Below are positions 9,440 to 63,402 of a stretch of DNA of 64,000 bases, piece after piece. Where the stretch lies: NCBI GenBank assembly GCA_010909725.1, contig JAACMV010000003.1, positions 1,054,001-1,118,000 of the forward strand. Reading direction: 5' to 3'. The position numbers and the translations under genes were made by a program. Under the pieces are notes generated by a model that made no database searches, was not told the DNA's origin, and saw only the letters and a program-made list of their open reading frames with translations. The DNA is from Picochlorum sp. 'celeri' (lineage: Eukaryota; Chlorophyta; Trebouxiophyceae). Position 1 is the stretch's first letter. The number at the start of each line of letters is the position of its first letter.

Positions 9440-11986
9440 ATGAATAGAAATATGAGTCTGTCGACGCATCAGTATGCCGAGAGGGAGGCTGTGCTTTCAC
9501 ATGCACGAGCTGTGCTGGAATCACTTCTTTCATCCGAGGCGACGACGGATCTGTGCGCAGATATAGAATTCGCAATAGATGATACTTTTAATAGTGAAAA
9601 TGAATGCCATACGACAAAGGACAGGGATTCTTTGCGTGTATGGAGGCTTCTTGGCGAAGCTCTCTCGGGGTCTCCGACAGGACGATTGCCGCCCGTAGAT
9701 CTACCGAAACCTTTTCAGGGAATAGAAAAGCCGTTTTCTATGATTAAAGAGTGTATGGATCAGATTGACGACGTGAAAGGGAGAAATGGAGGTTTCTTGT
9801 CCGACGCGGTCCGCCAGACAATAGATTGGTCCCTGTCGACTTGTGATCCAACATTACGGAGTGCGGATGTGGTTGGTATATGCGACAATATCAAGAAAAA
9901 GCATAAGATGGAGAAGATGGACGTTATGGGAAAAGAATATTTTCTTTCAGGCTGGGAGTGTGACATTGAGAATGTGGTGGAGATGGCACTGCATCTCACA
10001 GAGACTCCTCATGAAGAGGAGGAAGAAGATCCCACGCCCGACAAGAGGAGTACTCCAAACGATTCACCGAGAGAACATGGGATTAACACAAGTCGAAAAC
10101 TTGTTTTGGATCAAATGGTACAATGTGTGGAGAAGAAGTCCTCACATGGAGGGTGGTTGGAGCAGAATTCGTCATCCATTGAGCTGCTAGCATTTCCTGA
10201 AAATCAGTCAGGGTCGACAGAAGAATTACTCTTTCAGTTACCAATACAGTGGATAGAGATGATGCGCCAGTGTCTAAGTGTCCTTGCATCAGGTATACAG
10301 TGGGATAGGCTGCTGGAGCAGGAAAAGTCTCAGTTGAATCATGTCAGCTTCTCTGATCCTGAAACAGCTGCTCAAGTTTTGCATGAGCTGTGTCAGCGCG
10401 GCGTTTGTGACAGCAGACTGCTTGATGAGTGTGTTTTGTTCTGTCGAACAATGATACATAAAGGTTTGAAGGCTGTGATGAAATTGAGGGCTCAGTTTGA
10501 GGAACTTGGTGGGTTCGTACGAGGCATTTCTGAAGGCTGTCAGGAGGCTGTGCATCCCAAAGTCCAGGTGTTGAGGAATACCGTCATCACGTTTTCCACG
10601 CTCATGCCGGTACGACAAGTTTGGTTTGATATGTATATTTATCTGTGGTTTGCTTGGATGATGCTCATCTCATGTCGATGCTTGTAGAATACGAGGCAAT
10701 TGATTCTTTGTGACAAAGGAGATTGGTCAGATCTGTTCGAGTGTCTTCAAAACATGCGGATCTCAATCTTTCAACTGAGTTTTCCGCATCATTTAAGTTT
10801 GATAGATTCTGATGATTCGAGAGAAATCCTGATGGATTATGATTGTTTCTTTATTACGGTCAAGGATGCTGATATGGTGTATCAGAGACTGGCAGCGAAT
10901 GGCAATGAGTTTTTCAAGCATTTCCAAAGAGTTATTCTCTTCGACTCGGACCCCATGGTGATTGAACCTATCCAAGAAGTGCTCGAGATCATGTGCAAAA
11001 GCGGTCTGTTCTTTTGTCGTATGAAGCCTGACCTGTCGGATGTGCTGATACGCTTGGAGGAGCCCAGTGCTGGGAGTGTCAAAGAAGATGCCATGCTCCC
11101 TGATCTGTTTTGTGTGTCTCATGTGGCACCCCAAGCTAATGATTTTCATAGGAGTAATAATTGGATGCAAGATCAAGAGCGAGAAGAAGCACATCAAGAA
11201 CAAGATGATGTCTGCTATCCCAATGGACATATCTCACCATTCAGACAAGGCCCTCTGCCATATGGAAATCTGTTTGAGGAGCAACAGGGGGTATCGCATT
11301 CATATCAAAAAAGTCCAGAATCAAATTACAGCATGGGAATTAAAGAGAATAAGAGTCCTCTACTGTTCCAAGATCGTTTACCTGGACACATATGTCAGAG
11401 AACAGAAAACCTCTTTGACAAACATTCATCTAGTTTATTATCGTTTGAAGCTCCCTGTGCCATTGATAGACAAAGTGGCATCATAAGAGAGGGACCATGT
11501 ATTGATGCACTTCATCAACATGTGCATCAGATGCCGCCACCAAGCTATGCTGTCCACGATGATGTGCAAAATCTGTTTGAAGAGCCATTTCCTTCACAAC
11601 CCAGCAAGATCAGCCCGCTGACAGCCAGATATGGCACATATTACGCTGAGAGCACCCCACAAGGACAGGCAATGCTTTTCAACACGATTCCAAGGTACAC
11701 ACGTCCAGTTTTTGAGTGCTCTCCGTACGCAACAGCCGTACATCAACAGCCCTTGCAAAGCCAGCAGCCCACCTACCTGCATCATGCCAGTCCTTCCCCA
11801 AGCCATTTGCACAGTGTGCCCCAATTCATGACTCCGCGTCATCAAGTCACACCAACATCCTTCTGGCCACCAGTCATGGATCCCATGAACGGTCTCAAAC
11901 ATGTCGAGAGGCTCTATGAAGAAATGAGAAGGCCCAAGACCAGGAGAAGGCTTCAAAAGGGAGAGAAATTCAGAAAGTTAAAATAG
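9440..11986 (+). CDS. Unrecognised 822-residue protein with three NLF-acidic motifs
   Basis: Two exons are inferred: 9440-10609 and 10688-11986, with a 78-nt phase-0 intron (GTACGA...TTGTAG). I do not recognise the family. The N-terminal half is acidic and probably helical. After the junction there is a compact, probably folded segment (LILCDKGDWSDLFECLQN, FFITVKDADMVYQRL, RVILFDSDPMVIEPI) with alternating hydrophobic strands and helices. From about residue 540 the protein is disordered and rich in Pro, His, Gln and Ser. Within this part the motif NLF(E/D)(E/K) occurs three times (bases 11267, 11408, 11570). The last 25 residues are basic (RRPKTRRRLQKGEKFRKLK). The architecture suggests a nuclear scaffold or DNA/RNA-processing protein; that is inference only. 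The ATG at 9440 is the first after the preceding gene's stop; 9452 is a possible alternative. Confidence 0.75.
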
Positions 11987-32596: not shown

Positions 32597-33086
32597 TCTT
32601 CCTGTATGTTTTTATTAAAAGTGCTCTGGAATAATGAAATATAATGAATTGCAGTACAATCTTGGTCGGTAGATTGCGACAAGGAAATGCTCAAACACCC
32701 ATGGAGAGTATTGCTGTCTCCTATCAACACGCACAGTTGATGGGAGCCATCCATGTCTACCATCTGCCACGCACGTAGTGCCCACAAAGCCATGGGAGCG
32801 ACGAGCATCGAGTCATACGAATTTCAGGCATATTTATTATGATTGACTCATGAAGTAGTATATTTATATACATATTTAACATATGCGAGTATTGAAAAGG
32901 AGCTTTGTTGGTAGAGAGCGCAGTTTTGCTGCAGGAAATGACGAGAACAGGACTTGCTGAGTCAGCATTCTTCCCGTCACTTTGTTCTACCACGAGCGTG
33001 TTTTCGCATTCATTAAATCGTTATAGAGTTGGAAATATTTTTATACTAGTTACTAAATTTTAAATAGACGAGAGGGTGCGGTGAGA
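32597..33086. promoter_or_regulatory. Divergent intergenic region, thioredoxin-like gene / GAF-pseudokinase
   Basis: This 490-bp stretch lies between divergent starts. It is AT-rich around 32820-32890 and 33000-33065. I see no gene-like frame, repeat or strong palindrome. Confidence 0.4.
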
Positions 33087-35411
33087 ATGGCACTGCATCC
33101 GACGTACAAGACGACGACAAAGGCAGCACCTCCTGTACATGGTGGATTGGTGGACAAGAGTGAAGACCGGCAGGGCTATGCTACGTTGACTGGTGCCGGA
33201 GAGAGTCCTGTGCATTCATACATACCAGCATGTCATGACTGTGTCAAAGGTGGAATGTCTTCCGAGAGCAGTGGGGTGCGTGCTGCTTGCCTGTACAGAG
33301 ACAGAGCCTTTCGGGATTCTTCGTATAATGAGGAAGAGATGTGGTGTCCTGAAGATCATGGCGAACTTTCTCAAGGGACTAGAAGCGATGTTGTTAACAA
33401 TAGTGGTGCGCTGCCAGACGAGATGCAGTGTCGGATGATTCATTCTATAGAGTCATGCTCTCCAGAGGATCAGGCTGGGTTGGTGACGCACGTCTGCAAG
33501 GGGCTGCACGGTTCCACTCTCCAGGATGAGTGTGAGATATGTGCGGCATTGGATGATAATTCATTTTCACATACACTGCGCTGGATGCAACGGTTGCTCA
33601 AGGTTCCTGTGTGTGGCCTGATTCTTGGGGATGGAGAGGTGGTTTCTCTTCGCTGCGTGAGTGGCGTATATAAAGCGACGCGTCCGTCGATTGGGTCTCT
33701 GCTAGATTGGCTTGTGAGTAGAAGATGCATGACTAAAGGATCTGTGGCAGTGTGTGATACGTACCAGGACGAGGATTACCGGTATGATGCACAGGTGTGC
33801 GGGAATGCTGGGGTGCGGTTTTATGCTGCCAGGCCTGTTGTGATGGATGGGGAGGTGATTGGAACAGTATTTATATTGGATCGTGTTGCAAGAGAATTTA
33901 CTGAGAATATACGGGATGGTTTGGAGTATTTCTCGCTCATTTTCATGCACAAGTTGAGCGAGGTTGAGTGGAAACCAGCTGTACCGGGCTATTGCAGACG
34001 GAAGATGCTGGAGATGGCATTTGATACTTCTTCTTTTCCTCTTATGATTGCATCGTTATGTTCATCTCCAGATGGACGAACGTCGTTGGAGATTGAAAGG
34101 GTGAACATGAGTCTACAAGAGTGGTTTGCACGGGGAGATTGCCTTGCAGCTGCAGACCATCAGGGTGATGTGTGGGATGCATTGTCTTTTGCTCTTGATT
34201 GCAAGGATAGGGATGTTTGGGATGATTTAATTAGAAATTCAGATGATGGGTTCTTTGAAGTTGGCGTGAAAGAGGGAAAGCGTCGGGCCAAGATGTGTTT
34301 CAGCAGGGCTGTTGGGTTGCTGCCAAAATCATTGCCAGAGAATATGCAAGAGACGTGCCGAATGCTCGTGAGATGTATGCAACATGCCAACGATTCTTTG
34401 ACGCAAAAAGTATACTATGTTGTGTCACTGAGGGATGTTGCTCCGTTGAGTTTGCAAAGAACATCCCAGGGATTGGAACCTTCCCCTGTCTCATGCCATG
34501 GTGTTTCGTGGCTTCAGGATGTCTGTGTTGGACGTTTCTCACATTCTTCAAAGGTCTCAAGAGTATATAAATGTACCTTCAGGGGACGCAATGCGACTGT
34601 GAGGATTTCTCGGTTTGATAATGCTGCTCTTGATGCTCATGCTTCTGCAGTCATGGATGCATTCATGGCGTTGCCTCCACATCGTAATATTCTCGAGAAG
34701 TTTCGAGCTGGCACGATACAAAAGAAGAGAAATACAGGGTATGGATACCAGACCCTGCATGAGCATTGGCTGGTGCAGGATTATCCTGACAGAGGCTGCT
34801 TAAGAGATGCATTATATTCTGGCTTGTTCTCAGATGAGGAGAAGAAGCCGCTCTTTATTGCACTGACGATGATTGATATTGCACAAGGAGTGTTGCATAT
34901 GCGGAAGGAATCACTTTTGTTCGGAGAATTTTCAACAAAGGATGTGTATCTGAAATCAGATCCAACGGATCAGTTGAGGGGCTGGAAAGCTGTGCTTGGT
35001 GCCCCTGACATTGTGACTAATTGCCGTGCATTCAACAAGAATATTCCACCCATGTATGCTTGTAGCAAGCTTTCTTCTCCAGAGACGCTTTTGGGAAGCG
35101 AGGTATCGGCTCAGTCAGAGAGCTTTTCCCTTGGAATAGCATTGTGGGAAATGTGGCTTGAAACTGAGGCCTGGCCACAATTTAACTCTGAGGATTTGCT
35201 ACAGATGCTTTGCTTTGAGGATCAAGGGGGTCTGTATGTATCGCATGATATGCCTGCGCATTTGGCTCGAGTTTTATCCAAATGTCTGAGCACTAAGGAA
35301 AATTCAAGACTCTCTGTTCTCACTGTTGTGACGCTGTTGCAAGACTATGTTCAAATCCTTACAGGACGATATCATGCTGGAGATTACTTTGCAAATGAGC
35401 TTGTAGAATAA
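33087..35411 (+). CDS. GAF-domain protein with degenerate protein-kinase (pseudokinase) domain
   Basis: The first ATG is at 33087 (the frame opens six bases earlier with GTG), giving 774 residues. Residues about 150-290 look like a GAF sensor domain (HTLRWMQRLLKVPVCGLIL, then GNAGVRFYAARPVV and GEVIGTVFILDRVAREF). A PAS-like or linker part follows. From about residue 480 there is a protein-kinase fold: a glycine-loop-like VGRFSHSSKVSRVYKC, then HRNILEKF, VQDYPDRGCLRDAL and SFSLGIALWEMW. Key catalytic residues are missing. The VAIK lysine is replaced in VRISRFD, the HRD loop reads FGEFSTKDVYLKS, and the DFG position reads LGAPD. It is therefore probably a pseudokinase: a sensor coupled to a signalling scaffold. 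Ligand and partner are unknown. Confidence 0.75.
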   Translation: MALHPTYKTTTKAAPPVHGGLVDKSEDRQGYATLTGAGESPVHSYIPACHDCVKGGMSSESSGVRAACLYRDRAFRDSSYNEEEMWCPEDHGELSQGTRSDVVNNSGALPDEMQCRMIHSIESCSPEDQAGLVTHVCKGLHGSTLQDECEICAALDDNSFSHTLRWMQRLLKVPVCGLILGDGEVVSLRCVSGVYKATRPSIGSLLDWLVSRRCMTKGSVAVCDTYQDEDYRYDAQVCGNAGVRFYAARPVVMDGEVIGTVFILDRVAREFTENIRDGLEYFSLIFMHKLSEVEWKPAVPGYCRRKMLEMAFDTSSFPLMIASLCSSPDGRTSLEIERVNMSLQEWFARGDCLAAADHQGDVWDALSFALDCKDRDVWDDLIRNSDDGFFEVGVKEGKRRAKMCFSRAVGLLPKSLPENMQETCRMLVRCMQHANDSLTQKVYYVVSLRDVAPLSLQRTSQGLEPSPVSCHGVSWLQDVCVGRFSHSSKVSRVYKCTFRGRNATVRISRFDNAALDAHASAVMDAFMALPPHRNILEKFRAGTIQKKRNTGYGYQTLHEHWLVQDYPDRGCLRDALYSGLFSDEEKKPLFIALTMIDIAQGVLHMRKESLLFGEFSTKDVYLKSDPTDQLRGWKAVLGAPDIVTNCRAFNKNIPPMYACSKLSSPETLLGSEVSAQSESFSLGIALWEMWLETEAWPQFNSEDLLQMLCFEDQGGLYVSHDMPAHLARVLSKCLSTKENSRLSVLTVVTLLQDYVQILTGRYHAGDYFANELVE

Positions 35412-35574: not shown

Positions 35575-37254
35575 TTACATCATCTTTTTATGCTTTTTAT
35601 TTTTCTGATGATACCGATGTTCGACAGCAGGGTCTTGCAGTCGACGGCCTGAAATTCTGGATGTCATACACATTTCACACCAACGTTCTGTTCCACAATT
35701 CCGGAATGTACATGCTGGGCATTCCCATTCAGCCATTTCCCTGACTTCTTTTACTGAGCCGCTCTTTTTTTCTACCTTCTTTGGTTCTTTCTCATCAGAT
35801 TCTCGAAAGTAACTTTCTAGGCCCAACTGCCCTCTATCTCGCTGTAGCTCTTCTTGGAAATTGCTCATCCTCAAGCCCATCAATCTGATTTCTGCAGGCA
35901 GCTCAGATCTCAGCAATTCCCTTCCGCGAGCAAAAATTTTCTCTTTCGAGCAAATATATTCATCTAATGTCAGGCATCGAGTCTTTACCAAGAAATTAGA
36001 CAGTTTAATTTTCAATGTGAGTGTCTTGCCACGCAAACTCTCTGCATCCATATCCTGCGCTAAAACCCCAGCAATGTCGAGTAGTTTGGCCTCCAAAATA
36101 TCAGCATTGTCTGTTGGCTTGAATGTCCTCTCACAAGAAATTCCTTTCCTCCCGAGACTCCCTTCTTCGTGCTCCTTGTGAGTGTATGATGCTATACCAA
36201 GTGCAGACCGCATAAAGAATTCATATGATGTTTTTGAAAAGAGCAACGAAACTTTTGCTGCATTCTCAATAAGATCTCCACATGTCTCAATACCTAGTGA
36301 TTTTTGCAGTAGTTTCTCAGTCACTCGGCCAATCCCTGGAATTTTTCTGCAGGGAAGTTTTCTCATGAAATCCAGAATTGTCTCCCTGGTACTCTCCAAG
36401 ATGTATTGGCCATCTGGTTTGTTCAAGTCTGAGCAGATTTTTGCCAACATCTTGTTCGGCGCTACCCCAACGCTACATGTCAACCCCCCGGTAGCTTCAC
36501 ACACTGCCTCTCGGATTTTTCTAGCGCATGCCTCTGTGGACAAACCATGTACACGTATGTAGTCTGTCACATCCATGGAGGCTTCATCCAGACTTTGTGC
36601 TTCAAAATCTGGATCAAATTTGGCAAATATACCGCGGGTGATCATACTAAATCGTTTATATTGGTCAAATTTTGGCTTGACAAAACGAATATGGGGACAG
36701 AGGGATTCAGCTATAAAACCAGGCATTGCACTGCGAACTCCAAACTTTCGAGCAGCATACGATGCTGTACTGATCATAGACTTTGAACCGACAGCAAATG
36801 GAACACCCGCAAGACTTGGATCCAATATCTGCTCCACAGAAGCATAAAATGCATCCATGTCGATATGGCACCACACCCGTGTGAGGTTCCTCAAACTCTC
36901 CAGGTACACAATGTCCTGTTCTTGTACAACTACAGCTGCCTGAGACAACTGTTTCGCAGTCAGCCCACGCAATTTCTCCTTCATTCTCTCGATACGCTTT
37001 TCTGTGGCCACATTTTTTCTTGATTCATTCTCAAAATATGCCGAATCTTTAGACATCTCATAGACCACCTGCTTCACCTTCTCTTGGTCAACCTCTTCCA
37101 TCCCAGCCTTTGCATTCGTATAGACAGTGTCATAGTCCACTGCATTGCTCCTGTGAGCATTTGTACCCGGCATGGGGTTGGTAGACGCAGGATCCATCCC
37201 ATCCTCCCTGCCAACCCGTTGCTGTTGTTTGAACAACTTGTGCTCAGCGGCCAT
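35575..37254 (-). CDS. POLK: DNA polymerase kappa (Y-family) with C-terminal NZF zinc finger
   Basis: The ATG at 37254 gives 559 residues; the frame extends four codons further only through GTG. The N-clasp that marks Pol kappa is present (NAKAGMEEVDQEKVKQ, then ESRKNVATEKRIERMKEKL). Catalytic palm motifs are CHIDMDAFYASVEQ and SLDEASMDVTDY, and KFGVRSAMPG lies in the fingers. The thumb has CRKIPGIGRVTEKLL, and the little finger includes GKTLTLKIKLSNF. The enzyme bypasses lesions during DNA replication. The last 60 residues hold WECPACTFRN and CEMC, a four-cysteine RanBP2/NZF finger, where animal Pol kappa has UBZ fingers. The TF pair after the second Cys and the Met in CEMC are the ubiquitin-contact positions known from Npl4. 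The final residues are basic (QKNKKHKK). Confidence 0.92.
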   Translation of the reverse strand: MAAEHKLFKQQQRVGREDGMDPASTNPMPGTNAHRSNAVDYDTVYTNAKAGMEEVDQEKVKQVVYEMSKDSAYFENESRKNVATEKRIERMKEKLRGLTAKQLSQAAVVVQEQDIVYLESLRNLTRVWCHIDMDAFYASVEQILDPSLAGVPFAVGSKSMISTASYAARKFGVRSAMPGFIAESLCPHIRFVKPKFDQYKRFSMITRGIFAKFDPDFEAQSLDEASMDVTDYIRVHGLSTEACARKIREAVCEATGGLTCSVGVAPNKMLAKICSDLNKPDGQYILESTRETILDFMRKLPCRKIPGIGRVTEKLLQKSLGIETCGDLIENAAKVSLLFSKTSYEFFMRSALGIASYTHKEHEEGSLGRKGISCERTFKPTDNADILEAKLLDIAGVLAQDMDAESLRGKTLTLKIKLSNFLVKTRCLTLDEYICSKEKIFARGRELLRSELPAEIRLMGLRMSNFQEELQRDRGQLGLESYFRESDEKEPKKVEKKSGSVKEVREMAEWECPACTFRNCGTERWCEMCMTSRISGRRLQDPAVEHRYHQKNKKHKKMM

Positions 37255-37522
37255 ATCTAAATACACTCCTCACATATTTATATTCATATTCGCATGCGAA
37301 TTAATGGTTCTTTGAGGAAAAAAAAAGGTTAGTTTCTCAAAGAATGACGAGTACATCAAGGTGGTTGTTCATTTTCATCGACATGGCAGCAACTGTCGAT
37401 GAATGCTTCAAGATTTTTTTATTCCGTAGTCAACCTATTCGAAACCAATGGCCAGGACGTCATGAATCGCAATATAACTTCCGATCGAGTATTCCATGTA
37501 CACCAATATAAAAATATACAAA

Positions 37523-43552: not shown

Positions 43553-44341
43553 TTAAAATCTCTCCTGATATCGCTCGATGTGATATTTAATGCGCTCTAG
43601 ATGCTCTCGTACTTGCGTGTACATGTTGTATAATGAAGTCTTCTGAGATTCTTCCTGTGCAGTCTGCATCATCCGCAGCTGCTGGTGAATTCGGAATGCA
43701 GTGGCATATTTCTCCTCGTATTCTGCACAGTACAAGTCATACTCCTCTTCTGTTTCTATATCCCGACTCCATCCACCTCGCTCTCCGAATCCAGTCACAA
43801 GGCCATCCATGGACTGCTCTTCTTGAGAAGGATGAGCAATGTGGCTAATAGCAGGGTCACGATGAAATTCTTCACGTAGCACGTACATCCCCGGTGGTTT
43901 ATATACACATATCTGCTTCAACAATACTGACAGTTCTTCTTGATTCACGTATCGCACACTCTCCTGCTTTGCACACGAGCCTCGGCATCCAACCACTGAC
44001 ACACCCTTGGTTTCCAAAAGTTTCTTCTTCAGCTGGGTCATACCACACGGCTTCGCGGACAGTATAGATATCACACATGACTTTAAGGACATTTTTTTAT
44101 TCTCAGAACCGCGGTTCTGCTCCCTATTGCGGCTAGAGTCTCGCTGCAGCGGTGATGAAAATGCATGTTTAAGATTCTCACTTGTCGTCGTACTCGCTGT
44201 TTCTTGTGATACAGTGCTAGCTAATCGACATGATTCTTCATTTAATCGCTCTGTTGTGCAGGGAACAGAGCATTCTGTTCTATCCGTGACAACAGTAGAA
44301 TTCCTCTTCTCATGAGCAAGGTCGTTTGTCTGCATTGCCAT
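43553..44341 (-). CDS. ELL-like RNA polymerase II elongation factor (winged helix + occludin/ELL domain)
   Basis: A 262-residue protein. Residues 1-80 are Ser/Thr/Glu-rich and probably disordered. Residues about 85-157 resemble the winged helix of ELL (LKSCVISILSAKPCGMTQLK, then LSVLLKQICVYKPPGMYVL), corresponding to '..VI.LLALKP....L...L ... LL..V.......Y.L.'. Residues 195-262 form an occludin/ELL-type helical domain (IETEEEYDLYCAEYEEKYAT, ending REHLERIKYHIERYQERF). ELL stimulates Pol II elongation in super elongation complexes with EAF and AFF proteins in animals. The N-terminal ELL domain is missing, as in short protist versions. The weakest link is the divergence of the winged helix; the C-terminal pattern is the better evidence. 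Confidence 0.65.
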   Translation of the reverse strand: MAMQTNDLAHEKRNSTVVTDRTECSVPCTTERLNEESCRLASTVSQETASTTTSENLKHAFSSPLQRDSSRNREQNRGSENKKMSLKSCVISILSAKPCGMTQLKKKLLETKGVSVVGCRGSCAKQESVRYVNQEELSVLLKQICVYKPPGMYVLREEFHRDPAISHIAHPSQEEQSMDGLVTGFGERGGWSRDIETEEEYDLYCAEYEEKYATAFRIHQQLRMMQTAQEESQKTSLYNMYTQVREHLERIKYHIERYQERF

Positions 44342-44468
44342 GATGGCCCCGTTAAATTTGGGGTCTATTGCCGTCTAGAGAAATAAATAAAACAGAGTTC
44401 TATATGAAGAAACGCTATGCGGTATTACACATGTGGTAACCCAATTAAAAATTAAAAAAAAAACATGT

Positions 44469-47400
44469 TCAACGACGAGCAGACGGTGGGGGAGATGTGC
44501 TCATGGCAGCGTCCATGTCCCCCTGGAGACTTCTGGGGGCACTTGTTCCTGCAGCAGAGGGGATTCCTTGTTCGTTTGTGCGGATCTTTTGGACAGAATT
44601 TCCATCATGGACAGGTTGATCAGGTTGCGACATGGGGGACAAGATTGCATCATCCTCGTCACAAGCACCCGTTTCGCTATCCATTGCAGAGTGCAAGCGT
44701 GATCTCTTCGTACCTGTCGACTTTGACTGACCCTTTTTCTTATGCACAGTCCTCATCCACTTTCCAAATTTCAAAAGATTGTCAAACTCTCGTTTGAACA
44801 CGTCAATGTCATGAAGGCCAAAGCCCTCAAGATTGTGTGTATCTGGGTCACACATGAACTTCTCTGGGAACACACCTGGCAAGGTCTGGCACAAAATCTC
44901 CATGAATGCCATGATGGTTGGCCTTTCTTTCTGGACGTCACTCCGTAGAAATTCAAAAAATGCATTTGTCATTGCATCTCTTTCATCCTTTAGAGCATCG
45001 AACGACGCTTTATAATCCTTGGACTTATAATGATTTTGCCCCCCGCTGTTCACGATGGCATTTTCAAAATCACCAACACCCTGGAAACCCACAATGCTCC
45101 AATCGATATCAGCATCTCTATTCCTGATAGACTCTAAAGGCATCCTATCTTTGAAAGGTTCAACACCACTTGACCACAAATACGTCTCTTTTGTTTTCGC
45201 AAAATCGAAATCTTTGTGCATGTGACGATGATGACAGCAGGCACAACATGCTATGAGCAAGAATATTCTGGATTTCTGTTCATGTCTTATTTTCCTCAGG
45301 TCCTCTGCTCCCGTACGAGGATCTCGTGGAGTAGCATTGGGATCCACCTCTTTTTTACCCCAAACATTGAGCAGAAATTCAGAGAAAGATTCGTCATAGA
45401 CCGGTACATGAGGTTTTCCCTTGGAGTCGCCCATGATGTTTTTCAGCAAGCCCTTTGCCGTGGTAGCAGAGTCTTGTTCTACCTTTCCTGATTTCTCCGT
45501 CTCCAATGATCCTTCGATGATACTGGTTATCATGCCAATATCTTTGTCCATCATGGCTTTGAGGACTCGTACTTGCAGCCAAAACTTCTCCTCAAATGAA
45601 TTCATCACAGGTGCACTCCAAGATTGAGGTGTAGATTGAGTGTTTGTATTTACCGGAGTTCCGGCAGGCTCCAGGCCCGTAGAAGTTCTCATCGGTGTAC
45701 TGGGATTCTCTTGGATTGCAGAGAGTCCCTCAGTAAATTCGGAAGCCGCAGGAGTGCATGGTGCATTGGCGTCCACAGAAGCATCATCATGTGATGTATC
45801 AGAAAAATCCCAGCTGGGCACGATTATTGTTGCGATTTTATCCGATACTTTTGGATCAACCCTCAATGCTCTTCCATCTTTTTGAGTGATGTCAGAGGGT
45901 GACTTACCAGGGTTCACAATGAGGGCTGCATCGATTGAAGGAAGGTCCACCCCAATACCAACTAGTTTGACATTGAACAACACTCCTCGGCGAGCTTGAC
46001 AGAAGCAAGAGATGGTGTCTTGCTGATCCTCGTATGACATGTCAAAGTCGTCTTCATCTTCAGCAGAAGCATCTGATGTGTATATGATTCCTGTGAAGAA
46101 CTCCTCTGTCTCTGGGAAACGTCCCCTGGCATACTTGTCCAGCAGTGCATCGAAGATTCTCTTGCAAATCTTTGACTCCTCTGTCTTCAGGCAAAACACC
46201 AACGCCGTTCTAATTGGTTTCTCACTCTCTTCAAGCATGAAACAATCAAGCAAAAGTTTCATCGACCTAAAATGGTGAGCGGTTCCATCGACAATAGTAC
46301 CATCAATGGTCAGGCGCCACTGCACTTTGTTGGGGCTTTTCACCACGATTTGTTCCTGCATCTTTTGGTCAGATACTTTGGATTTGCCGAAAATAGCGTC
46401 GAGATATTCGGTGCCCTCCAAATTATACCTTTGATACTCCAACTGAGGGATTTTCTTCCGCTCAAGCATAATCAACCTGGGTTTTGCCAGGCAATTTAAC
46501 TCCATGCACTCTTGGTAGCCGAGTTTGTGGATCACAGGACCAATCCTATTCTTTGGACCAAGACCTGTCATATCATGGATAGAAAATCCTCTTCTCTCAT
46601 TCCATGGCACAAAAATCTTATTGAGTTCCTTGTTTACTCCATAGCAAATCGAGTTGTGATCTATTTCGAGATAGATACCAGTTTCCGGATTGCTGCATCT
46701 AACCACTCCAAAATACTCAGGATTGCCATCATCGTCCAGCACTATATCATAGCACTCGATATGATCTGGCGACGTATACACGATTTGATCCTTGACATAG
46801 AATACAACAATGCCTCGTCTCTCGTTATTCGCCTGATTTTGAAAATATGACCAATCATACTGGTCTCCTCCTGTGTTGTTTTCCAAGCGGAACAGCATAT
46901 CTTCTGACAGCAAATCGATGGGGCTCCATTGCTTTGTATCGTACCCATTTAAAGTCTGTTCATTGTTTCCCGCAAAGTTTCGCAACTTTTCAACATCAAT
47001 TTGAGGGAAAATTCGACTGCTTGGGAGAGACAAATAGGTGGCATTTTGGTCCAAGGAAAATTCCTGATTTTCTGGGGTTTCATCTGGAAACATCATGTGG
47101 ACATTATCAAGGTCATACTTGGGTGACGCAGTAAAACTCAGTCCAATATATGTTGGCAAATAAAGACTCGCTGAGTAGCTTTTGCTACCTCGACCAACAG
47201 CGGTATGCGCTTCATCTCGCACAGTCACACCAAATAGGGGGGCAGTGGGGACTCTCTGGTACAGTTCCAAATTAATCCTTCGCATTGTCTTCATCAATAC
47301 CTTACCACCCTGATATGTCGTAAAAAATCTGCAGAGGTGCAATGTGTGAGTGTCCTTGTGATGCTTGAAGACGGAGAACAAGTTCTCACTGGTTATCAGC

Positions 47401-48947
47401 CGCACTGCTGTGCAGCCAGACAAAGAAATCATGTTCTTCTCCTTTTTCAAAGAGCAGACACAATAGTAAATCATCCTCATCTCTTCTCGCTCTCTAGCAA
47501 GTTCCTCAGCAAGCCACTGCATAAATATCAAACAATCGATTACTTTCTGGCTATGACAGGGTCAATAATGGTAGCATACCTCGTGTGCATTTTGCATTAC
47601 CAGCCGTATCATCGGTGATAGATGAAGAGAGGCTGCAATGTTTTCTTCTTTGATAGTATTTTGTAAACGTATCTGTAGCTTAATTGAGCTCAAAAAGGAT
47701 GTAAGAGTCTTCCCAGAACCGGTTGCCATGATCACTGAAGCATACTGAAGCATAGTAAGAGTGCCAGGTGTGAACCCTTCAAAACGTGTTTCTACAGATT
47801 GAATGGCTTTCTCCTGATAAGAGCGGGGATTCCTTGGATCTTTATACTTGAAATTGGATATCTCATTGCTCTCTGATATGATTCGCTTTTTCCAGCAAGT
47901 CAACTCATCATGGATATTCTCAATCAGGTTGCACACTGTGTTGTCATCACTCATTGCCATATTCCCATAAAATTTCACACGACCATATTGGCACAGCGTT
48001 GAAAAGTAATTCATTGGATCTTGTCTTATCTGTGTCGACATCCAAAAGAATGGACAAAGCATCAGAGATGACGACCTTCCTGCTTTTTGGATGGCTGAGT
48101 TTATTTGATCTAGCAAATGTACAAGTGGGTAATACTTTCCAATGTATTCTGCCATGTTGACTTCAGCAAATTGATTTGACCTGTATTTGCATTGGGCTAA
48201 AATCAAATGAATATGCCGATTTGAATCGACCATAGATTCCTCCTCCAACTCAACCAGCAGGTCAAATCCCAAGTCTTCTGCAATGTTTTTTCTCAGCTCC
48301 TCAATGAAAGTCTCCACAAGAGTTCCAGGGGCATCGAGACTATCAAAGTACTGCGCTATTCTCTTTCCAAAACTTTCCAAATTTTGATCATTAGCATTGT
48401 CAGGCCAATGCAATGAACCTGTTCCAAACTTTTTTTCAGACAAAAAGACATTCTTCACTGAACATCTCACATCTTCACAATCCTCATGTAATTCATGATA
48501 GTAATTTTTTATATTAAGAGGTGTTTGCTTCTTGCATTTAAATACAATCGCACATAATATTTCATATGCTTCTCCTTTGATGTGACTTGAAGTGATTTCT
48601 GATACTTCACCATTTCTGCTGACCAGCAGCTTTCCGTCAGTCCAACGAAGACCACTCACCAAAGATTCTTTGTTGGCACCGTATTCACTCTGTACGTGAT
48701 GTAAAAGCCTTGGTAGGTTGAATTCTTTCGTCAGAGTATCTATGTTCTTGGTAACATTTGTAATTGTTGCACAGTAATTCATCTGATCATCATGAGCACC
48801 AAACCACGGCCCATCGTAGATTGCTTTGCCCAAACAGGAGATGGCCAAAAGGCGAAGCAAGTCGGGCTGCGAACACTTTGCTTCGTCTCCTGTCTGTGAA
48901 GGGCTGACCTGGGAAATTGCAGCAGGTAGCTCCAATATATCAACCAT
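44469..48947 (-). CDS. Restriction-type nuclease fused to SF2 (DEAH) helicase, 1471 residues
   Basis: Two exons are inferred: 48947-47580 and 47516-44469, joined across a 63-nt phase-0 intron (GTATGC...ATGCAG). The N-terminal 300 residues look like a Mrr/PD-(D/E)XK restriction-endonuclease fold. A helix GEAYEILCAIVF (Glu126) is followed by GFD (Asp229) and AQCKY (Gln252, Lys254), the D...QxK pattern of Mrr enzymes. The helicase follows: RSYQEKAI, Walker A MATGSGKT (about 408-414), FTTYQGG, DEAH at 557-560, SFTASP at 584-588, motif V VGIGVDLPS and motif VI QKDGRALR (1001-1008). About 250 residues separate the two RecA lobes, more than usual. A Ser/Thr/Pro linker and a helical C-terminal region with a basic patch (KKKGQSKSTGTKRSR) end the protein. 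The layout resembles prokaryotic DNA-defence or viral enzymes; the cellular role in an alga is unknown. Confidence 0.8.
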
Positions 48948-53443: not shown

Positions 53444-53771
53444 ATCCTCTTCCTATCGAATATTTCCACGTGATGGTATCAGGAAAATCACATGGTTTTT
53501 TTGGAAATGGCCGTCCATCATGGATGACAACCGACCTGAGAACAAGGGGACATGGAACCCGACCCCTAATTAAACATTAGAAACTCATGCTCATCTCTCC
53601 TGATTATATTGAAAAATAATTGAAAATTTACACTAGTAGGGTGGCGTACAGCACTCAAAAGTAGACAACGTCCTTGTACTAGTGGCCATGCGAGAATTTC
53701 ATTTTTCATGTCGCACACTCATATGAATATGAGAGGAAAGGATACATGCCTTGTGTATGAGATAATCAGTC
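53444..53771. promoter_or_regulatory. Divergent intergenic region, CIA30 / VPS13
   Basis: This 328-bp gap lies between divergent starts. I see no coding frame of quality and no notable repeat; an AT-rich patch lies at 53600-53630. Confidence 0.35.
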
Positions 53772-56700
53772 ATGTTTGAAGGCTGGGCGACAGATTTGCT
53801 GGCGTCCTACTTGGGCAAACTGTTGGATATCCAACAGGAACAGCTAAAGGTCAATTTGTGGACGGCTTGGAAGACAGGTGTGACGCTGGAAGATGTCCCT
53901 TTGCGGGAAGATGTGGCACTGGATCAATTTGGAACTATTCCCTTCACGTTGGTGGGGGGTACGATTGGAAAGGTGCAAGTATCAGTGCCTTGGGGTGCAT
54001 TGATGGCACCAGTGGTGGTTTCCCTGAATGACGTTGCCATCGTTGTGCGCATGCTTGGTGACGATGAGCTGAGCGGAAGGAAAGCATATGAACGCTATAT
54101 TGATTTCAAAAAGGGTTTGATTGCATCCCAGCAGTTGAAGGCGGTGGCTTGGGAAGTTGACAAGGCTTCGCCGTCCTCGTCCAAGGATGGGTCTCCTTTA
54201 ATGTTTGGTGGCGTGATGTATTCCTTCCTAAAGCACGCATTGTCGTTACTGCTTGGAAGATTGCGTGTCGATATTCGAAATGTTCGAATTACACTTGTGG
54301 ATGGAGAAGAAGGGTCTGCGCCAATTTGCACTTTTTCTGTGGGACAGATCCAAAGTATTGATACGCCTCTTACATTCAAGCTTGATAAAAAAGACGCATA
54401 TAGGATTCCGGGACGGGATGATACTATTGTAGACTTGGCTGATAGGTCGTTGAAGCTAGGGGCATCGAAGAATTTTCGATTCTTTGGTATCAAAGTGATG
54501 TGGGGGGCAGCGTCATGCTTGCTGCACACTGATTTCAATGCAAAGATTTTTTATGATATAAAATCGACTCCAAGCCAGATACTTTTTACACTTGAGTTTG
54601 ATACGCTGAAGAGTCATATGAATACGGATGAGTTACAGGCGATGGTCGAGTTGATGGAGGATATAGAATGGAAATCTGTCCGATTAAAAGTTGGGCATCT
54701 AAAGCCGCAAGATGGTGCGTTTGATGCATCAAGTAGGTGGAAATTCGCGGTGAATAGTATATTGCTACAATTGTATGGTCCTTTAAAGTTTTCCTCGTGG
54801 AAAAGTCCGAAGGAGAGATTGCAGGAACGGAGGCGATATATTCTCCTGTACAGGAAAAAGATTGAGAAAGAGGTAAGGGAAGGGTTGACCAAGAGTGACC
54901 TTGTTGGAAGTAGTGATGTCGGAGTGTCTCAGAGTTTATCTTTGGTTGGTGAGAATCAACTGGCACTGCTGGAAGAGTCCATGTCTGTTTCTGACATTCT
55001 GGCTTGCCGGACAGCTGCCAAGAGGAGTTTGGATCACAGGGGAACCCAACTGGTGGGGAAGTCATCGAACTCGACAAAGATCGGGAACTATGAATTGGTA
55101 GATAATTTGAGTGGTGAAGATACTTCAGAATCGTGTTGGGTGAAAATACCCTCCTTGGCAGATATGGAAGAACTTTTCAAGGCAGTGGATTTCTCACCAG
55201 AAGAGAGTGTTGCAGAGCAGTCATCGTCAGGGCTGAACATCCAGACGCTCGTAATGGTTCATATACCAACATCTCAAGTTGAGATTTGCAATAATGCCGG
55301 GACTGTGGATGTGTGTGTCAAGTTGGCAAATATTGCATGTGGGTTTGTTAGTGCTTTGGAGAAGGCCTCTTACGGTATGGGCAGTTTGGAAAGTTTGTCC
55401 TGTAGTAGTCCAAACGGTAGTTTTGTGAATTCAGTGGTAAATGACTCATTATCGTTTGTCAAGTTGGAATATAGCAGTTTGACAAAATGTATTCAAGCTG
55501 ATATCTCAGGCATTCAGATCAAGGCTGTTCCACAAGATATCCAAAGTATTTTCCATAGTATTCCTGTGCAGTCGCCAGAAGCTTACTCTTTGCAGTGGAT
55601 GAGATCCGCATTGTCCATGGAGAAAATAGGTTATTGTGTGGAGACAGTGCAACGAATAAAGTCCTTAGGAAATTTCATTGATTTTGCCATACGGCTTGGA
55701 GAGACAACTGTTGATGTCCATGATTTGCAAACATCGTTCAGCTCATTAACTCTTGGCACATTGATGGAGTCTGAAAATTTTGATGAGTTACACCGCGTCT
55801 ATAATGTGATCAGCTCGCTGAGACCTCAGGAAGAGGCATCCAGAGTAGTACAGGATGCAATGCAAGCATTAGAACATCGGTTGATTTATAAAGCGTTGGA
55901 CATTCAAGTGGAGAGTCTAGCAGTATATCACCACAAATTTATTGTGCTAAATCCAGTGAGCTTTGGCGTGTCAACGAAAATAAACAGACTACTGGGTGAT
56001 TTCTCCCACCCCCAAGTTATCTTGGGAATCTCCCTCACTTCAATAGATCTTCAAGCCAATGATGAAGTTATCAGAACTCTCATGTATATTGCAGATGAAT
56101 TCACACAAACGAATGATGGTGTCCCCAGAGAGAATGTCCCTGAAGACACATTGGAAGTCAGGGTAGATTGGTCTTCAATGCAGGTAGGGTGGTTTGATGA
56201 CCAAAAGCAGTTTTCTGTGCAAACTGGGGCGGGTATGGTGAGCTCACAAACTTCTATGAGCACGTCTGTATTTCAAACAAAAATAAACAGCATTGAAATG
56301 GAGCACTTGAGAGGCATGGAAAACATTGAAATGCCTGTTTTCGACCTATGTATACCATATATAGCAAAGGTTCTTCATATTGGGCACTTTACTGGTACAG
56401 CTGAGAGAAGCAAAAGATCAAGATCAGCAAGCTTCAAGCTATATGATTTAAACTTGACGGGAGACGACAGTGATCCTTCGAATTTTATCAAGAGGTGTGG
56501 ATTTATTAGTCTGTTTGCATGCATTGGTCGTTTTTCAGTATCTGAATTGCAACTGCGATGATGCAGGTTGGGACCTGAAAAGAAGACTCCAGGAGTTGCA
56601 GTGACGTACACAGAGGATTTCGATGGTCGCTCCTGTGTTCAAGGAGAATTATCCAACATTGAAATAGGCCATGGCGTGATTCTGCGCGCATCTTTGCTTC

Positions 56701-59700
56701 CTTTGGTGCTCTCCGCGAACACAAACTCAATAGTTCCAGAGGATGATAAACAGGACAAGGCCCGTCCAGTCTCTGTTCAAATTTCCCTTCACAATTTGAG
56801 CCTTGCCTTTGCACACGATTCGCAGAGCAATGTGCGAAACATGCCAATAGATTATCTCGATTTCTCATCTGTGCAACCTCGCATTGCATCCTGTTCCATC
56901 AACAGGCTCCAGCTGGGAATCACATTGTCAGAGAAACCGTCAGTTGACTCATTTGAGATGGAGGCACTAAAGCTGCGCTGTGGAATTTTGAGCAGCCGGG
57001 GACCATTGCTGACTCCGATTTTAGATATTCCGGTTGTCAATTATTGTCTTCAAGACAATAATGTCTTGGTGGTCAAATGCAGGCAGATTGAAGTGGGAAT
57101 TCATCCGTATCAGTTGACTTTACTTCGAGCCTTGGCACTTCGATGGGAGTGTCAAAGAGAACGTCTGTCTCAGTCATACGCATCTAAGCAGGGCTCTTTT
57201 CCTGATAGTACTGACACTTCTTTGGCATTGCCTCAGATGGATTTTTCTCCAGTGGAGGTTCAAATTCAGGATATTGATGTTTCGTTATTGGGATTACCCT
57301 CATTGAACGGCGGGGTGCTATTAGTAGGCCGATCTTGTAGTGCACGTATGCAACCAAAGTCTTTTAGGTTTTGCTGGAATAAGTTGGAAATACTCTTCAA
57401 GGAATCGCAAGTGGCACAAGTGGATCCTTCTGGTTCAAATGATGAAAGCAGATCCATGTCAGGCTCCAACAGTCCATGCAAGACAGATTTTTCCCATTCT
57501 TCCGACCTTGATAACCACACTGAATTCTACGACGTTTCAAGAAACGCAAGCAGCGCTTCTTTCGTGTCCAAATATTACAGCATTGGAGACGATGAAACCA
57601 CTTCTGTTTCCTCTCACTCACTAGGTATGCTATGCTTCTATCTTTCCCTGCTCTCCATACCACAGTTTTACATTAATTGCTTCTTTTGTACTTGCAGTCG
57701 AAGAGGGTAATTCTGCATCAACTTTGAATGTTGAGTCCCTCACTAGTGTTGTGACCATTGCATTTGACCAGGAGCAACAAGGGGTGGAAGTTTCCCTTTC
57801 GGGTAAGAGTGCAAAAGTATCAATCTCACCGATTTATATCGCTTTTTGTATTGATCCTATTGCATCGATAGTTCACTTTGTGGAAGCCTATGGGAATTAT
57901 CTATCGACTCATGTTTGTGTTGAGGATGACCATCAAAGCTCTGTGATATTGCGGGAGAGAGCACCACGTGTCCGGGACTTGGAAGTAGAGCTTCAATGTG
58001 TCTCTCTCATGATGGAGACAAAACATCGTAGAGGATCCATCGCTGAACAATTGTCTTCTTCCATTGATTCCACAGAAGACTCGAGTTGCTGCACTTCAGA
58101 GGCGACCAAGGATTTCTTATCAGTGAGGCTGAATAAAGGTCTTTGCTCTTATAGCTCGGGCAATGCTGGTCAAAAGATTTCTCTTCGTGTTCTAGGGATT
58201 CTTTTTGCGGGCGACTCTTCCTCTGAAGGGAAGCAAAAGGAGAATTGGCAATCCTCAGCAATTGTTGGAGTGCAAAACCTCAACATACAGTGCAGCATTT
58301 TGCACAAGAAGAAAGAAGCCCAGGCTTTCAAATCCGATGCTTCATGCGATCAGATATCTGTATGGATCAACCAAGAGAATATACCTCCAGTCCAACATGT
58401 GATTCTGAGACTGAGAGACTGTATGGATGAAGCCAGAGCAACATCCCATTCAAACAGTGGCAGCCAGATGACTCAAAGCTGGTCATCAAATATGATCAAC
58501 TCAACAATAATGATGTCTTTAGGTAGATTTTCTATTGTCCTTGCATCATCTATAGCTGACGAGCAAGTTTATCTTATGGAAGGGAACCTAAAAGACATCT
58601 CTGTGATGGCATACTTCATCAACGGAGTTGCTCATGGATCTGCATCATGCAGCATTGGAGTGGCGGTTCCAATTGTGCAGTACGGGGTATGGGCCAATGT
58701 CCTTGATGATACAGTTGTCAAATTCCAAGCCATATCACCGCATCTTGATCAAACTAGCAATCCTTCACCTGGAAGCAAGATTGCTCACCTTGATCTGGAT
58801 GTAGGATCAGCAAATCTCACGATCACGAGTGACATACTCCACTCAATCAGCCTTTGTGAGGCATTCGTCACTTCATTGATTAGCTCACAGAATCAGATTG
58901 ATTTTGAAGTGAATACGGGTATGGATTGGGTCGTTAATCATACTGAATTTGACATTCTGCTGTGCCTCCCAGGAGACAATGAAGCATGTAGTCATGCTGG
59001 TGCCATTGTTTTGGAGCCTGGTGCTAAATATTATCCCAGTCAAATATCAACTCAGCCCTATAAATCCGGATTGCCTGATATAGAAGAAAGCATTTCAGAG
59101 CGAGGAGAATGCAATGATATATCAAGATGTCCATCACCAGATTTCATGGATGTCAAACTTTCTGGAAGTGACAGTAGATATTGCAGGATTGACTTGCAAC
59201 GGTAGGTTGAGATTATCAGGAATTCTTCCTTTGGCATCTTAATATCTGTATTTATGTTCAGGGATCGATGCTCTCGGCATTGCTTTAATGTTGAAGGACA
59301 AAGCCTGGCTGTGATCTCCAAGACAAAAAGGCTGCCTTCCGGGGCTTGGAGGACTTCTCTTGAACCAAGTATTGAGTTTCAAAATAATACAGTTTTCCGA
59401 ATAACACTCCGATATATTTCTGATCACAGTCCAGAATACCCACTGATAAGGGTAGTCCCTCAAAATGCAAAAATTTGGCTCCCTTTGTCTGCTGTCTCAG
59501 GAGAATATAGGTTCAAGATTGACACTCAGGAGACCATGCTAACTGAGACTGAAAAGATCGACGATATATCTCCAATTGGATTGTCAGAGCCATTACTTTT
59601 GTGGGACTCGATGTTTCAGACTGAGTATTCTGATCAACTTGATATCATTTCTGACCATGAGACGGCTCAGTTCTGTATGTCATTGACCATAAAAGGTATG

Positions 59701-62700
59701 TTTCTTTACTTTCTTTTTTGCCAAAGCAGCAGCCGTTAAGTTGCACAGAATGACCGCTACTATAATATGTCTACAGGAATTTCTGGCTCAATCTCTTTTA
59801 TTGCAAGCCCAAAAGTTCTACTTCAGAATCTTTTGCCAGTTCCCATGACAGTTGTCTCAGAAGACCTCTGTACCAGACTTTGTGCTTCTCCCACTGAAAC
59901 GTTGATGCTTACTGATGTCCACCATCTCCCCTGGAACTTCAAAATATCTCCAGTGGATTTCAATGAAAGTCCTATGTTTTGCTTGAGTGATACAGAGGGC
60001 ACGTCAAGAATCAGCTGCATTGGAGATCCTGAGCAAACCTCTATGCTATCAACAATATTCAGTGATAGCTCTTCAGGAAACACTGAACTTTTTGCTCAGT
60101 TGATAACTCATAGAAGTTCGGATACCGGTACAGTTTTGTTGAAAATTGTGGCGCCAATTTGGGTATATAACTACACAGGATTGCCAATCTCTTTGAGCTG
60201 CCTGCTTTCTTCTGAAGTGGCGAATGAAATAGATAAGTGGGAGGAACCGGATGATGGAGAAATAATGGACATTGTGCCTGAATCTTGGATACTGCCACTT
60301 CAGATATCCGTTGGTGCTGAATTAATTTCAGTCCGATCTGTTCCATCGTCCCTCCATATGTCTTTATCTGAGCCATCCATTTGTGAGACTGAGCGGGGTG
60401 AACGTGACACACTGGATCACATGCTTGGTAGACAGAGAGGATACACTGAGCAAAATGTTAGCGAGGCATCTACTGATATTTTTCTAGGTCTGGGCTGTCT
60501 TGCACATGATGCCGAGGGTGTAGAAGATGCGTCATTGATACATCACCCTCATGGGCAAGCCAATGCAGTGGATTCTCCCAGCGGCAGAATGCCAAAAGCC
60601 CATTCAGCATGGCCTTCTGGATTGAACCAATTTGCCGTGAGCTTATTGAAGCAGCCAATGAAAAAGATTCGCATTCGGTCATCCAAACAGAAGGCACGCA
60701 GTGGTTCTACTTTCTGGTCGTCTCCTTTGTTCCTAGGTGGCCTGCACGACCGACATGAGATTGTGCAGATTCCAACCCCAGTCTCTACAGGGGGAATGTC
60801 CAAGGACAACTTCAGGTCTGGGGAATACCCTGCTGTTGTTAGTCTGAAAGTTCTCGAAGAAGGCGTGGAAGAAATAATAATCTCGCCGCAATTCGTCATA
60901 ATTAATCAATTGAACTCCTCAATCCAGTATCGCCAAAAGGGGACAAATGCAGAGGTTAAGATCAAGCCAGGAGAGTACAGCCCACTTCAATGGACAGACT
61001 CAGGGCTGCCTCGAAAATTATCTGTGAGGATTTTAGAGGCGGGTTGGTTGTGGTCCGGTGGATTTTCTCTCGAGCATGCCGGTGATATTTTCCTCAAGCT
61101 CCGCCATCGAGACAGAGGAATCACTAGAATCGTTCGGGCAGATGTCTCCCATTCTTTGAAGGATGGCACTAGAAGAATCATATTCCGCTCAAATCCAGAT
61201 GACTTTACACCATACAGGATCGAAAATTGCTCCCTTGAAACATTAATAATCCGCCAAAAAGGTGTCATGGACCAGCAGGATGTTCTGAGACCATATTGCT
61301 CTTTGGATTACACCTGGGATGAGCCCTCCTTATCTCATTTTGTTGTCATCGAGAGACCTGGTGGCCTTTTTGTGGGAAGTATAGATCTTGATAGGGTTGG
61401 TTTGAAATTCCAAGTGAATGTTAAGGATAAAATGTCGGACAAAAAGGTGAGGCTGTCCATCTCTGTCCACTCGGAGGGCCCAATGCGAGTTCTTCGAGTG
61501 ATGGACGAGAAATACCATCAAAGTGTTTCGCATAACGGCAATGACCTCACTCGTGTGGATGGAGGACTGAATAATACATTCGATTTGAAGTGCACTTTCA
61601 ACAGCATCTTCATCTCCTATGTGCAAAAGAGGGAAGAAAAGTTGCTATTGGCAATTAGGTATTTTGCTCTGTCATGCTTGACTAGTCCCTCGAGAATTTC
61701 CATCTCTGGGTCAATTGATTTGATACAAGTCGATAATCCAAGGATTACATCTATATTTCCTGTGGTATTGGTTCTTCCAGCTCCAGAGAGTTCCCTGACT
61801 TCCAGAGTCCGAAAGGGAATTGAGCCACAGAATGTCAAAAAGCCTTTAGCATGGAATTTGATTGTCTGGAGAAAGAAACCACAGAACAAAGTGGTTTGTT
61901 TTGAATTGGCTGAGATACATCTAAAATCCCTCGGGATTTATATCGAACAAGACATATTAAATTTGTTCGAGAATATCTCAGAAGAATTAGAATCTTTGCA
62001 GAGGTTGAACATCACTCACTCCAAAGGCTTCCAAACAAGAAACGGCAAGATTAGCTCTCTGGACCTCTCGACTTTAGAGTTTTCAAAGACAAAACAGTAC
62101 AGAGATGACAAGTATTACTTTGATCGCATAATTATCTCTCCGGTGGAGGTCAGGCTCAGCTTCAATTCGTCATTGGTCCAAGATTCAAGCAGAGCTTTCT
62201 TTCAACAAGTGATTGCGCTAGCGGATATTGAGGATGCCAGGCTGTGGCTTGCCGGTGTCATACTAAAGAATGCTCTTTTAGATGAGATCACAATGCAATC
62301 GTTTTTATCAAGCCACTACCGCAGAGCACTTTTGCTGGAATTGTTCAAAATTGTTGGTGCAGCAAATGTTCTTGGGGATCCAATGGCGTTGCTCCACCAT
62401 GTTGGGCTTGGAGTGTGGGAGTTCTTCTCTGGACCTGCTGTGGGCCTCATTGAAAGTGCTAGAACATTCGGACCTAGGGAATTTATTTTTGGTTTCATAT
62501 CGGGTACTAAAGGATTGCTGCAGAACGTCCTTTTTGCAGCTTCCAATGCAACAACAAAAGCATCCAGTGCTGCCCACAAAGCGATACTACTTTGGGGCTT
62601 TGGGAGGGACGGCCGCCAGAACGATTTGCCCATGAACACAGTGATGCAGCACTGGGTACGAGTAGACGAACACCTCCCTGATGAGGAAGGACTGATTGGA

Positions 62701-63402
62701 GCTATACTTCGAGGACTAGTTGGACTTGCTACCGATCCCATCAAAGGAGCAGAGGAGAGAGGACTGTTGGGTTTTGTAGATGGAGTTTTCCATGGTCTCC
62801 TCGGTACAATATTGATTCCACTGTCAGCATGGCTTCAAATGTGTGCTTCTACTGCTCGCAGTATTCGAAAAGCTGTAGCTGGAACAGCAAACCTTAGCTG
62901 GACTAGGCCTCCAAGATGGATTGATTTATCTAAAGCCCTAGAGCCATACAGCAGGACTGAATCCATGGGCAGATGGCTTTTCGTCCAATTATCCATGCAA
63001 CAATATTGGAGAAAGAAGATTGAGAATGACTCGTTTGTGGTATGCTGTAGATTATACAATGCAGAAAACTCTGATGAGTCCTACTTGGTATTGACTGATA
63101 GGAGGGTCCTTGTTGTGACAGCAAAAGGAAATAATTGGAATCCACGAGTACTGTGGACTTCTAGGTTGGGAGCGATTGAAACAATCCATACAGATCAAAA
63201 ATCAGTTCTTATCATTGCGAACCCAGAATTGGTGAAATCCTCAATGTTGAGGATGCATGAAGAACAGGGCAAACTCTTCTCAGTATTTATTGCACGCCTT
63301 GAGACCGAGAGTGAATCACAAAATTTTTCTGCTAAACTGACGTACGAATGCTCGAAATATTTACAAGACTATTACAGCAATAGGATTGGGTTCAACATTT
63401 AA
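53772..63402 (+). CDS. VPS13: VPS13-family bridge-like lipid-transfer protein
   Basis: Five exons are inferred: 53772-56494, 56567-57624, 57698-59201, 59262-59695 and 59777-63402. The introns are 72, 73, 60 and 81 nt, all GT...AG, and every join is in frame. The product has 3114 residues, the usual size. It opens with the chorein domain (MFEGWATDLLASYLGKLL, LDIQQEQLKVNLWTAWK, VVVSLNDVAIVVRML). About residues 2280-2530 form the VAB/SHR-binding region (YRIENCSLETLIIRQKG, RPYCSLDYTWDEPSLSHF). Residues about 2690-2960 are the conserved VPS13 C-terminal domain, with LSSHYRRALLLELFKIVGAA and GLIESARTFGPREFIFGF. A PH-like end follows (YLVLTDRRVLVVTAKGN). VPS13 proteins form long hydrophobic grooves that move phospholipids between organelles at contact sites. 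Confidence 0.95.

Follow-up and report, generated by a model that had tools for sequence, protein, structure and literature searches.

Gene structure and residence in the nucleus

The stretch of DNA analysed here (the window) comprises 64,000 nucleotides of contig JAACMV010000003.1 from the green alga Picochlorum sp. 'celeri'. Its minus strand contains a gene whose predicted product combines a nuclease-like N-terminal region with a superfamily 2 (SF2) motor of the kind found in restriction enzymes, followed by a C-terminal region that differs strongly between the two haplotypes of the alga (Table 1). As the initial annotation of this DNA had proposed from the letters alone, splicing 48947-47580 to 47516-44469 yields one uninterrupted protein of 1471 residues, and the 63-nt intron removed in the process begins with GTATGC and ends with TGCAG.

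Table 1. Features of the nuclease-motor gene (window coordinates)
Feature	Position	Strand	Basis or remark
Nuclease-motor protein coding region, 1471 residues, two exons	44469..48947	minus	
Exon 1, residues 1-456	47580..48947	minus	
Intron, 63 nt	47517..47579	minus	GT-AG; position common to relatives
Exon 2, residues 457-1471 and stop	44469..47516	minus	
Predicted PD-(D/E)XK-type nuclease core, residues ~117-345 (E126, D229, Q252, K254)	47913..48599	minus	Invariance, model, structural matches
SF2 motor lobe 1, residues ~366-600	47085..47852	minus	Span includes intron; Pfam; hhalign to Type ISP 6.8e-18
Family-specific insert between lobes, residues ~601-770 (~170 residues)	46575..47084	minus	Four Type ISP proteins give no match
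SF2 motor lobe 2, residues ~880-1030, motif VI Q1001-R1008	45795..46247	minus	Pfam, invariance; hhalign to Type ISP 1.2e-14
Predicted helical C-terminal region, residues ~1197-1376	44757..45296	minus	Exon-2 model, mean pLDDT 53.8; here 59-89 per ten residues
Block A, residues 1254-1306	44967..45125	minus	Haplotypes 0 base differences (159 bases); P0001 differs at 25/53 residues
Block B, residues 1330-1390	44715..44897	minus	Haplotypes differ at 49/177 aligned bases

Three protein searches, each of which scored only the roughly 8000 candidates with most words in common, returned 20 family clusters (P0001-P0020). The open reading frames of six relatives (P0013-P0016, P0018 and P0020) stop no more than 43 residues beyond the splice point. 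In five of the six, among them P0020 at about 30% identity, the sequence QNA[HQ]E is followed by V, encoded by GTN, which is what an intron left in place would give, while in the sixth (P0018) the frame crosses the splice point without a break. P0001 and P0002 start with ..MQ followed by WLAEE, which is the 3' side of the splice point. The point is also read across in P0003, P0004 and P0007-P0012, which may be intron-free or derive from sequence already spliced; for P0006 and P0017 the sequences come from gene models. An intron position common to relatives suggests long residence in nuclei.

The genome assembly (27.4 Mb, 30 contigs, two haplotypes, G+C near 45%) agrees with this picture. A protein search of it found two copies, which are alleles on C3 (the contig of this window) and C23, each on a contig of over 1.2 Mb; paralogues are thereby ruled out. 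Codon use correlates with that of 16 pooled window genes at r=0.93, where those genes compared with the rest give 0.50-0.90. Two relatives, moreover, carry the names of small green algae, namely P0006 (Picsp_1, which we take to be Picochlorum sp. SENEW3) and P0017 (Nannochloris 'desiccata'); these are the only organism names on the 20 clusters. Together the intron position, codon use, contigs and named relatives support the claim of the initial annotation that the gene is resident in the nucleus, and the genome copies, codon use and intron rule out bacterial contamination.

The nuclease-like region and the motor

The putative catalytic residues of the N-terminal region lie where they had been predicted, with GEAYE starting at residue 125 and D229, Q252 and K254 downstream. 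E126, E129, D229, Q252 and K254 are identical in all 14 aligned rows, which consist of exon 1 and 13 of the 20 relatives (the region is missing from P0001, P0002, P0005, P0007 and P0017, P0010 starts inside it and P0019 is a near-copy of P0011). In the predicted model D229 sits beside strand 230-236, and Q252 and K254 on the neighbouring strand 246-254, an arrangement that provides the catalytic acidic residue and (D/E/Q)xK signature of the PD-(D/E)XK superfamily. A structural search with this model (VIA) gave a middling best Z of 7.2 among the matches listed. We take all 50 listed matches to be PD-(D/E)XK nucleases, presumably including the defence-system proteins Avs3, Avs4, LmuA, HerA-DUF and HamA. 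The Type ISP enzyme LlaBIII is not among these 50, which excludes nothing. No Pfam nuclease model, Mrr included, matches the protein. The structural model suggests a nuclease-like fold for this region, where the lack of any such match would have refuted the initial annotation; catalysis is a prediction.

The helicase motifs given in the initial annotation are present. GSGKT starts at residue 410, DEAH at 557 and TAS at 585, and motif VI follows. None of the 12 rows of alignment A3 (exon 2, P0001-P0010 and P0017) departs from DEAH, T585, A586, Q1001, G1004, R1005 or R1008, and invariance at both sets of residues exceeds chance. The profile searches proposed in the initial annotation gave matches for the motor, with Pfam ResIII at 4.2e-9 (residues 373-589), Helicase_C at 9e-7 and DEAD below the cut-off, and none for the nuclease. 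Against PDB sequences the family profile matched three in all at 0.01: LlaBIII (6.3e-14), LlaGI (1.5e-13) and RadD (1.2e-5). Both lobes also aligned by hhalign to four Type ISP proteins taken from six fetched plasmid regions (Table 1). With the weak structural model of exon 2, Foldseek ranked LlaBIII first (E 7e-3), and VIA placed it level with Brr2 and Dicer. Of the 237 records from a plasmid search, not one reached 80% coverage of the query, and the best bears a type ISP label (27% identity over 33%). RadD and Dnd-type helicase models match the motor as well (2.9e-9 and 1.4e-8), without approaching their curated cut-offs of 720 and 600 bits. On these sequence comparisons, the motor is nearest to Type ISP restriction enzymes.

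Type ISP enzymes consist of a nuclease, typically of PD-QXK form, followed by a translocase, a methyltransferase and a target-recognition domain (TRD), according to a review (PMC3874165). The algal protein resembles LlaGI and LlaBIII in being a single chain with nuclease-like region, then SF2 motor, and a D...QxK motif. Unlike them, it is encoded by a eukaryotic, intron-bearing gene, has a family-specific insert between the lobes, and gives no Pfam or hhalign match to a coupler, an N6-methyltransferase or a TRD. Neither the insert nor the C-terminus has any hhalign match to the four Type ISP proteins, which rules out the C-terminus as a hidden coupler or methyltransferase. The [ND][PI]P[YFW] motif is absent from the protein and from seven relatives examined. 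Because these later domains were tested for and not found, the protein is not a Type ISP member as defined; by anatomy it would correspond to half of such an enzyme.

The methyltransferase was not found elsewhere either. A six-frame search of the genome with N6_Mtase, Mrr_cat_2 and Type_ISP_C gave no match, although this search proceeds exon by exon, may miss split domains and did not extend to other methyltransferase families; nor does an M or S gene adjoin in the window. As a separate observation, both haplotypes contain an MT-A70 methyltransferase gene (G000:C7:1478090-1478593 and G000:C24:1456126-1456629), which might be relevant to adenine methylation in the alga.

Other known systems are more distant. 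Type I HsdR and Type III Res share a restriction-type SF2 motor (Pfam ResIII) with the algal protein, at weaker matches than Type ISP. In HsdR (EcoR124I) the nuclease likewise precedes the motor (PMC3874165). The relative P0006 has been named 'type iii restriction protein res subunit'. In Type III Res, however, the nuclease is located after the motor, where no Pfam nuclease model matches the algal protein, whose nuclease-like region comes first. Cap4/DUF4297-like defence nucleases (Avs3, Avs4, LmuA, HerA-DUF and HamA) are not fused to this motor, and neither PADLOC nor Pfam gives a sequence match over the algal nuclease region. RadD and Dnd-type helicases are related through the motor, and we know of none with such a nuclease in front. 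The initial annotation regarded the gene as a candidate for an undescribed system: we found no paper on it in the literature searched, which covered few subscription journals, yet its relative Picsp_1 already carries a restriction-type name.

The family itself is likely wholly eukaryotic. Outside the nearest group, relatives share about 31-47% identity, and P0008-P0012 form a separate group in the trees that contain them. Beyond the 20 clusters, the protein searches yielded three Streptomyces helicases, matching over a small part, and no housekeeping family found throughout eukaryotes, the appearance of which would have refuted the initial annotation. Of the pattern matches from two viral_contigs scans (150 and 34) none was confirmed, a BFVD fold search gave no match below 1e-3, and tblastn of P0003 against phages gave six records, all confined to the motor part. 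Prokaryotic scans produced 424 and 160 pattern matches, of which 0 and 1 were confirmed; the latter (Pararhodonellum) was rejected, since its gene was judged by eye to encode HsdR of a Type I system, with HsdM and HsdS as neighbours. No close bacterial or viral family member was found in these searches; since each viral and prokaryotic scan was built on two short peptide patterns, distant members may still exist.

Haplotype divergence and the C-terminal blocks

Aligning C3 with C23 over 74 kb (window positions 1-64000 and a further 10 kb) revealed 572 mismatches. The gene accounts for 135 of these in 4479 bp (30.1 per kb), compared with 6.3 per kb outside it and 4.2, 8.7, 11.3 and 21.5 per kb in four other regions (best alignment of each, 23,010 of 24,000 bases counted). 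Divergence of the gene as a whole is therefore high, not unique; it is the distribution inside the gene that stands out. Residues 1-340 are nearly identical between haplotypes (dS 0.005) and residues 457-1024 have dS 0.058, whereas block B reaches dN 0.287 and dS 0.634, and the 81 codons after it show four differences. The worst 150-bp window of the 74 kb starts at 44726, within block B, and holds 32 mismatches; no such window outside the gene exceeds 10, and the highest count in the four other regions is 11.

Block A, unchanged between the haplotypes, varies elsewhere in the family: P0001 differs from both, and P0002 and P0005 differ from C3 at 27-29 of 54 residues, as much as P0001 does. In block B, by contrast, P0001 resembles C23 (5 of 61 residues different). 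P0001 is not identical to C23: of the seven other exon-2 stretches compared, six show 0-4.3% difference between the two, and residues 1025-1090 show 12%. The block limits were chosen after the differences had been seen, and the comparison covers only three sequences. The simplest reading of these alignments is block-wise replacement, which may reflect introgression, balanced alleles of long standing or an exchange of sequence between alleles that had diverged; a genome search for donor copies of the C-terminal blocks found only the two alleles. As dN/dS is below 1 wherever dS exceeds 0, we claim hypervariability and not positive selection. In the weak model of exon 2, both blocks lie in the helical C-terminal region, which by analogy may be the recognition region; sharp allelic difference confined to a short segment can occur in genes whose products recognise targets that change.

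Divergence between the haplotypes is also patchy over the 74 kb (0-47 mismatches per kb). It reaches 3.5% at 7-8 kb and 1-2% at 20-27 kb but almost vanishes at about 38-44, 48-53 and 56-63 kb, a pattern resembling loss of heterozygosity in some stretches.

Proposed function and alternatives

Three features not foreseen in the initial annotation shape our interpretation: the motor is Type ISP-like, a Type I/ISP methyltransferase was not detected, and one C-terminal block is hypervariable. We give roughly even odds to the following reading. The gene would be a nuclear resident encoding an ATP-dependent DNA endonuclease that has the front-half architecture of a Type ISP enzyme, is probably directed against foreign DNA and carries a hypervariable C-terminal region. 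In such an enzyme, the N-terminal nuclease of PD-(D/E)XK type (D...QxK form) would be followed by the SF2 DNA motor, and the places of the methyltransferase and target-recognition domains would be taken by the between-lobe insert and the helical C-terminus. One or both of these would engage the substrate and license ATP hydrolysis, the motor would travel along or remodel double-stranded DNA, and the nuclease would cut after motor action. Its role would be restriction of foreign DNA, viral or otherwise incoming. Self would be distinguished from non-self without a cognate Type I/ISP methyltransferase, by some other means, and changing selection would act on the hypervariable C-terminal blocks. 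That the protein hydrolyses ATP, translocates, cleaves and chooses a target is here read from the families to which the parts appear to belong; the defence role we infer, the polymorphism pattern being an indirect hint of it.

Weighing against this interpretation, the nuclease-to-nuclease homology with Type ISP is not significant: hhalign against the four Type ISP proteins gave E 0.012 with the active-site stretches in register, hardly better than an unrelated segment (0.023). This comparison, no better than its control, counts a little against both the endonuclease and its more specific form considered below.

The main rival, to which we would assign perhaps one chance in four, is that the protein is a nuclease-helicase of DNA repair or organelle DNA, its restriction-type front half having been recruited for damaged, replicating, plastid or mitochondrial DNA and its C-terminal variation reflecting drift or introgression. 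A single copy per haplotype, purifying selection on the nuclease and motor (dN/dS 0.26 and 0.30), the failure of the six-frame search to find a methylase partner and the match of the motor to the repair helicase RadD would all suit such work. Against it, a family of 20 clusters with the low identities given above is narrow, unlike a core repair gene, and one block is extremely divergent between alleles.

Slightly less probable than repair, and so doubtful, is the specific form of the restriction endonuclease: an innate immune nuclease of small green algae, methyltransferase-free and translocating in the manner of Type ISP, that would restrict large-DNA-virus or other incoming DNA and whose specificity would reside in two allele-exchanged C-terminal blocks. 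The exchange of these blocks might then, with the same low likelihood, be a nuclear counterpart of bacterial TRD swapping. A correlation between large DNA viruses and Picochlorum has been reported for an industrial algal pond (PMC11633385). Work on restriction-type nuclease-motor enzymes has treated them as prokaryotic. The algal version, resident and interrupted by an intron, has conserved catalytic residues and no methylase match, and it prompts two questions: how a nucleus could contain such an enzyme and keep its own DNA uncut, and what target is cut.

A little less credible again is that introgression or hybrid haplotypes left the hypervariable block behind, which would then be uninformative on function, in an enzyme whose role is unrelated to recognition. 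This would fit the patchiness of haplotype divergence everywhere, the one other region at 21.5 per kb and the choice of block boundaries after the fact; yet no other 150 bp seen comes near the divergence of block B (32 mismatches against 10-11 outside the gene), and the second block varies separately in P0001. Finally, an allorecognition or mating-related gene whose diverged alleles are retained as self markers would account for block-wise difference within an otherwise near-identical stretch, and is highly improbable, given that it rests on three sequences and that a link to a mating locus was not looked for.

Several other genes lie in the window. A Y-family DNA polymerase with IMS domains and a weak RanBP-type zinc ribbon match is encoded at 35575-37269 (minus), next to a single open frame at 33057-35411 (plus) with a GAF domain and then a protein-kinase domain. 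Two open frames, at 10688-11986 (plus, 432 codons) and 43553-44374 (minus, 273 codons), have no Pfam match at 1e-3. A large lipid-transfer-like gene occupies 53766-63402 (plus), the first frame of which matches VPS13_N and, more weakly, ATG2.
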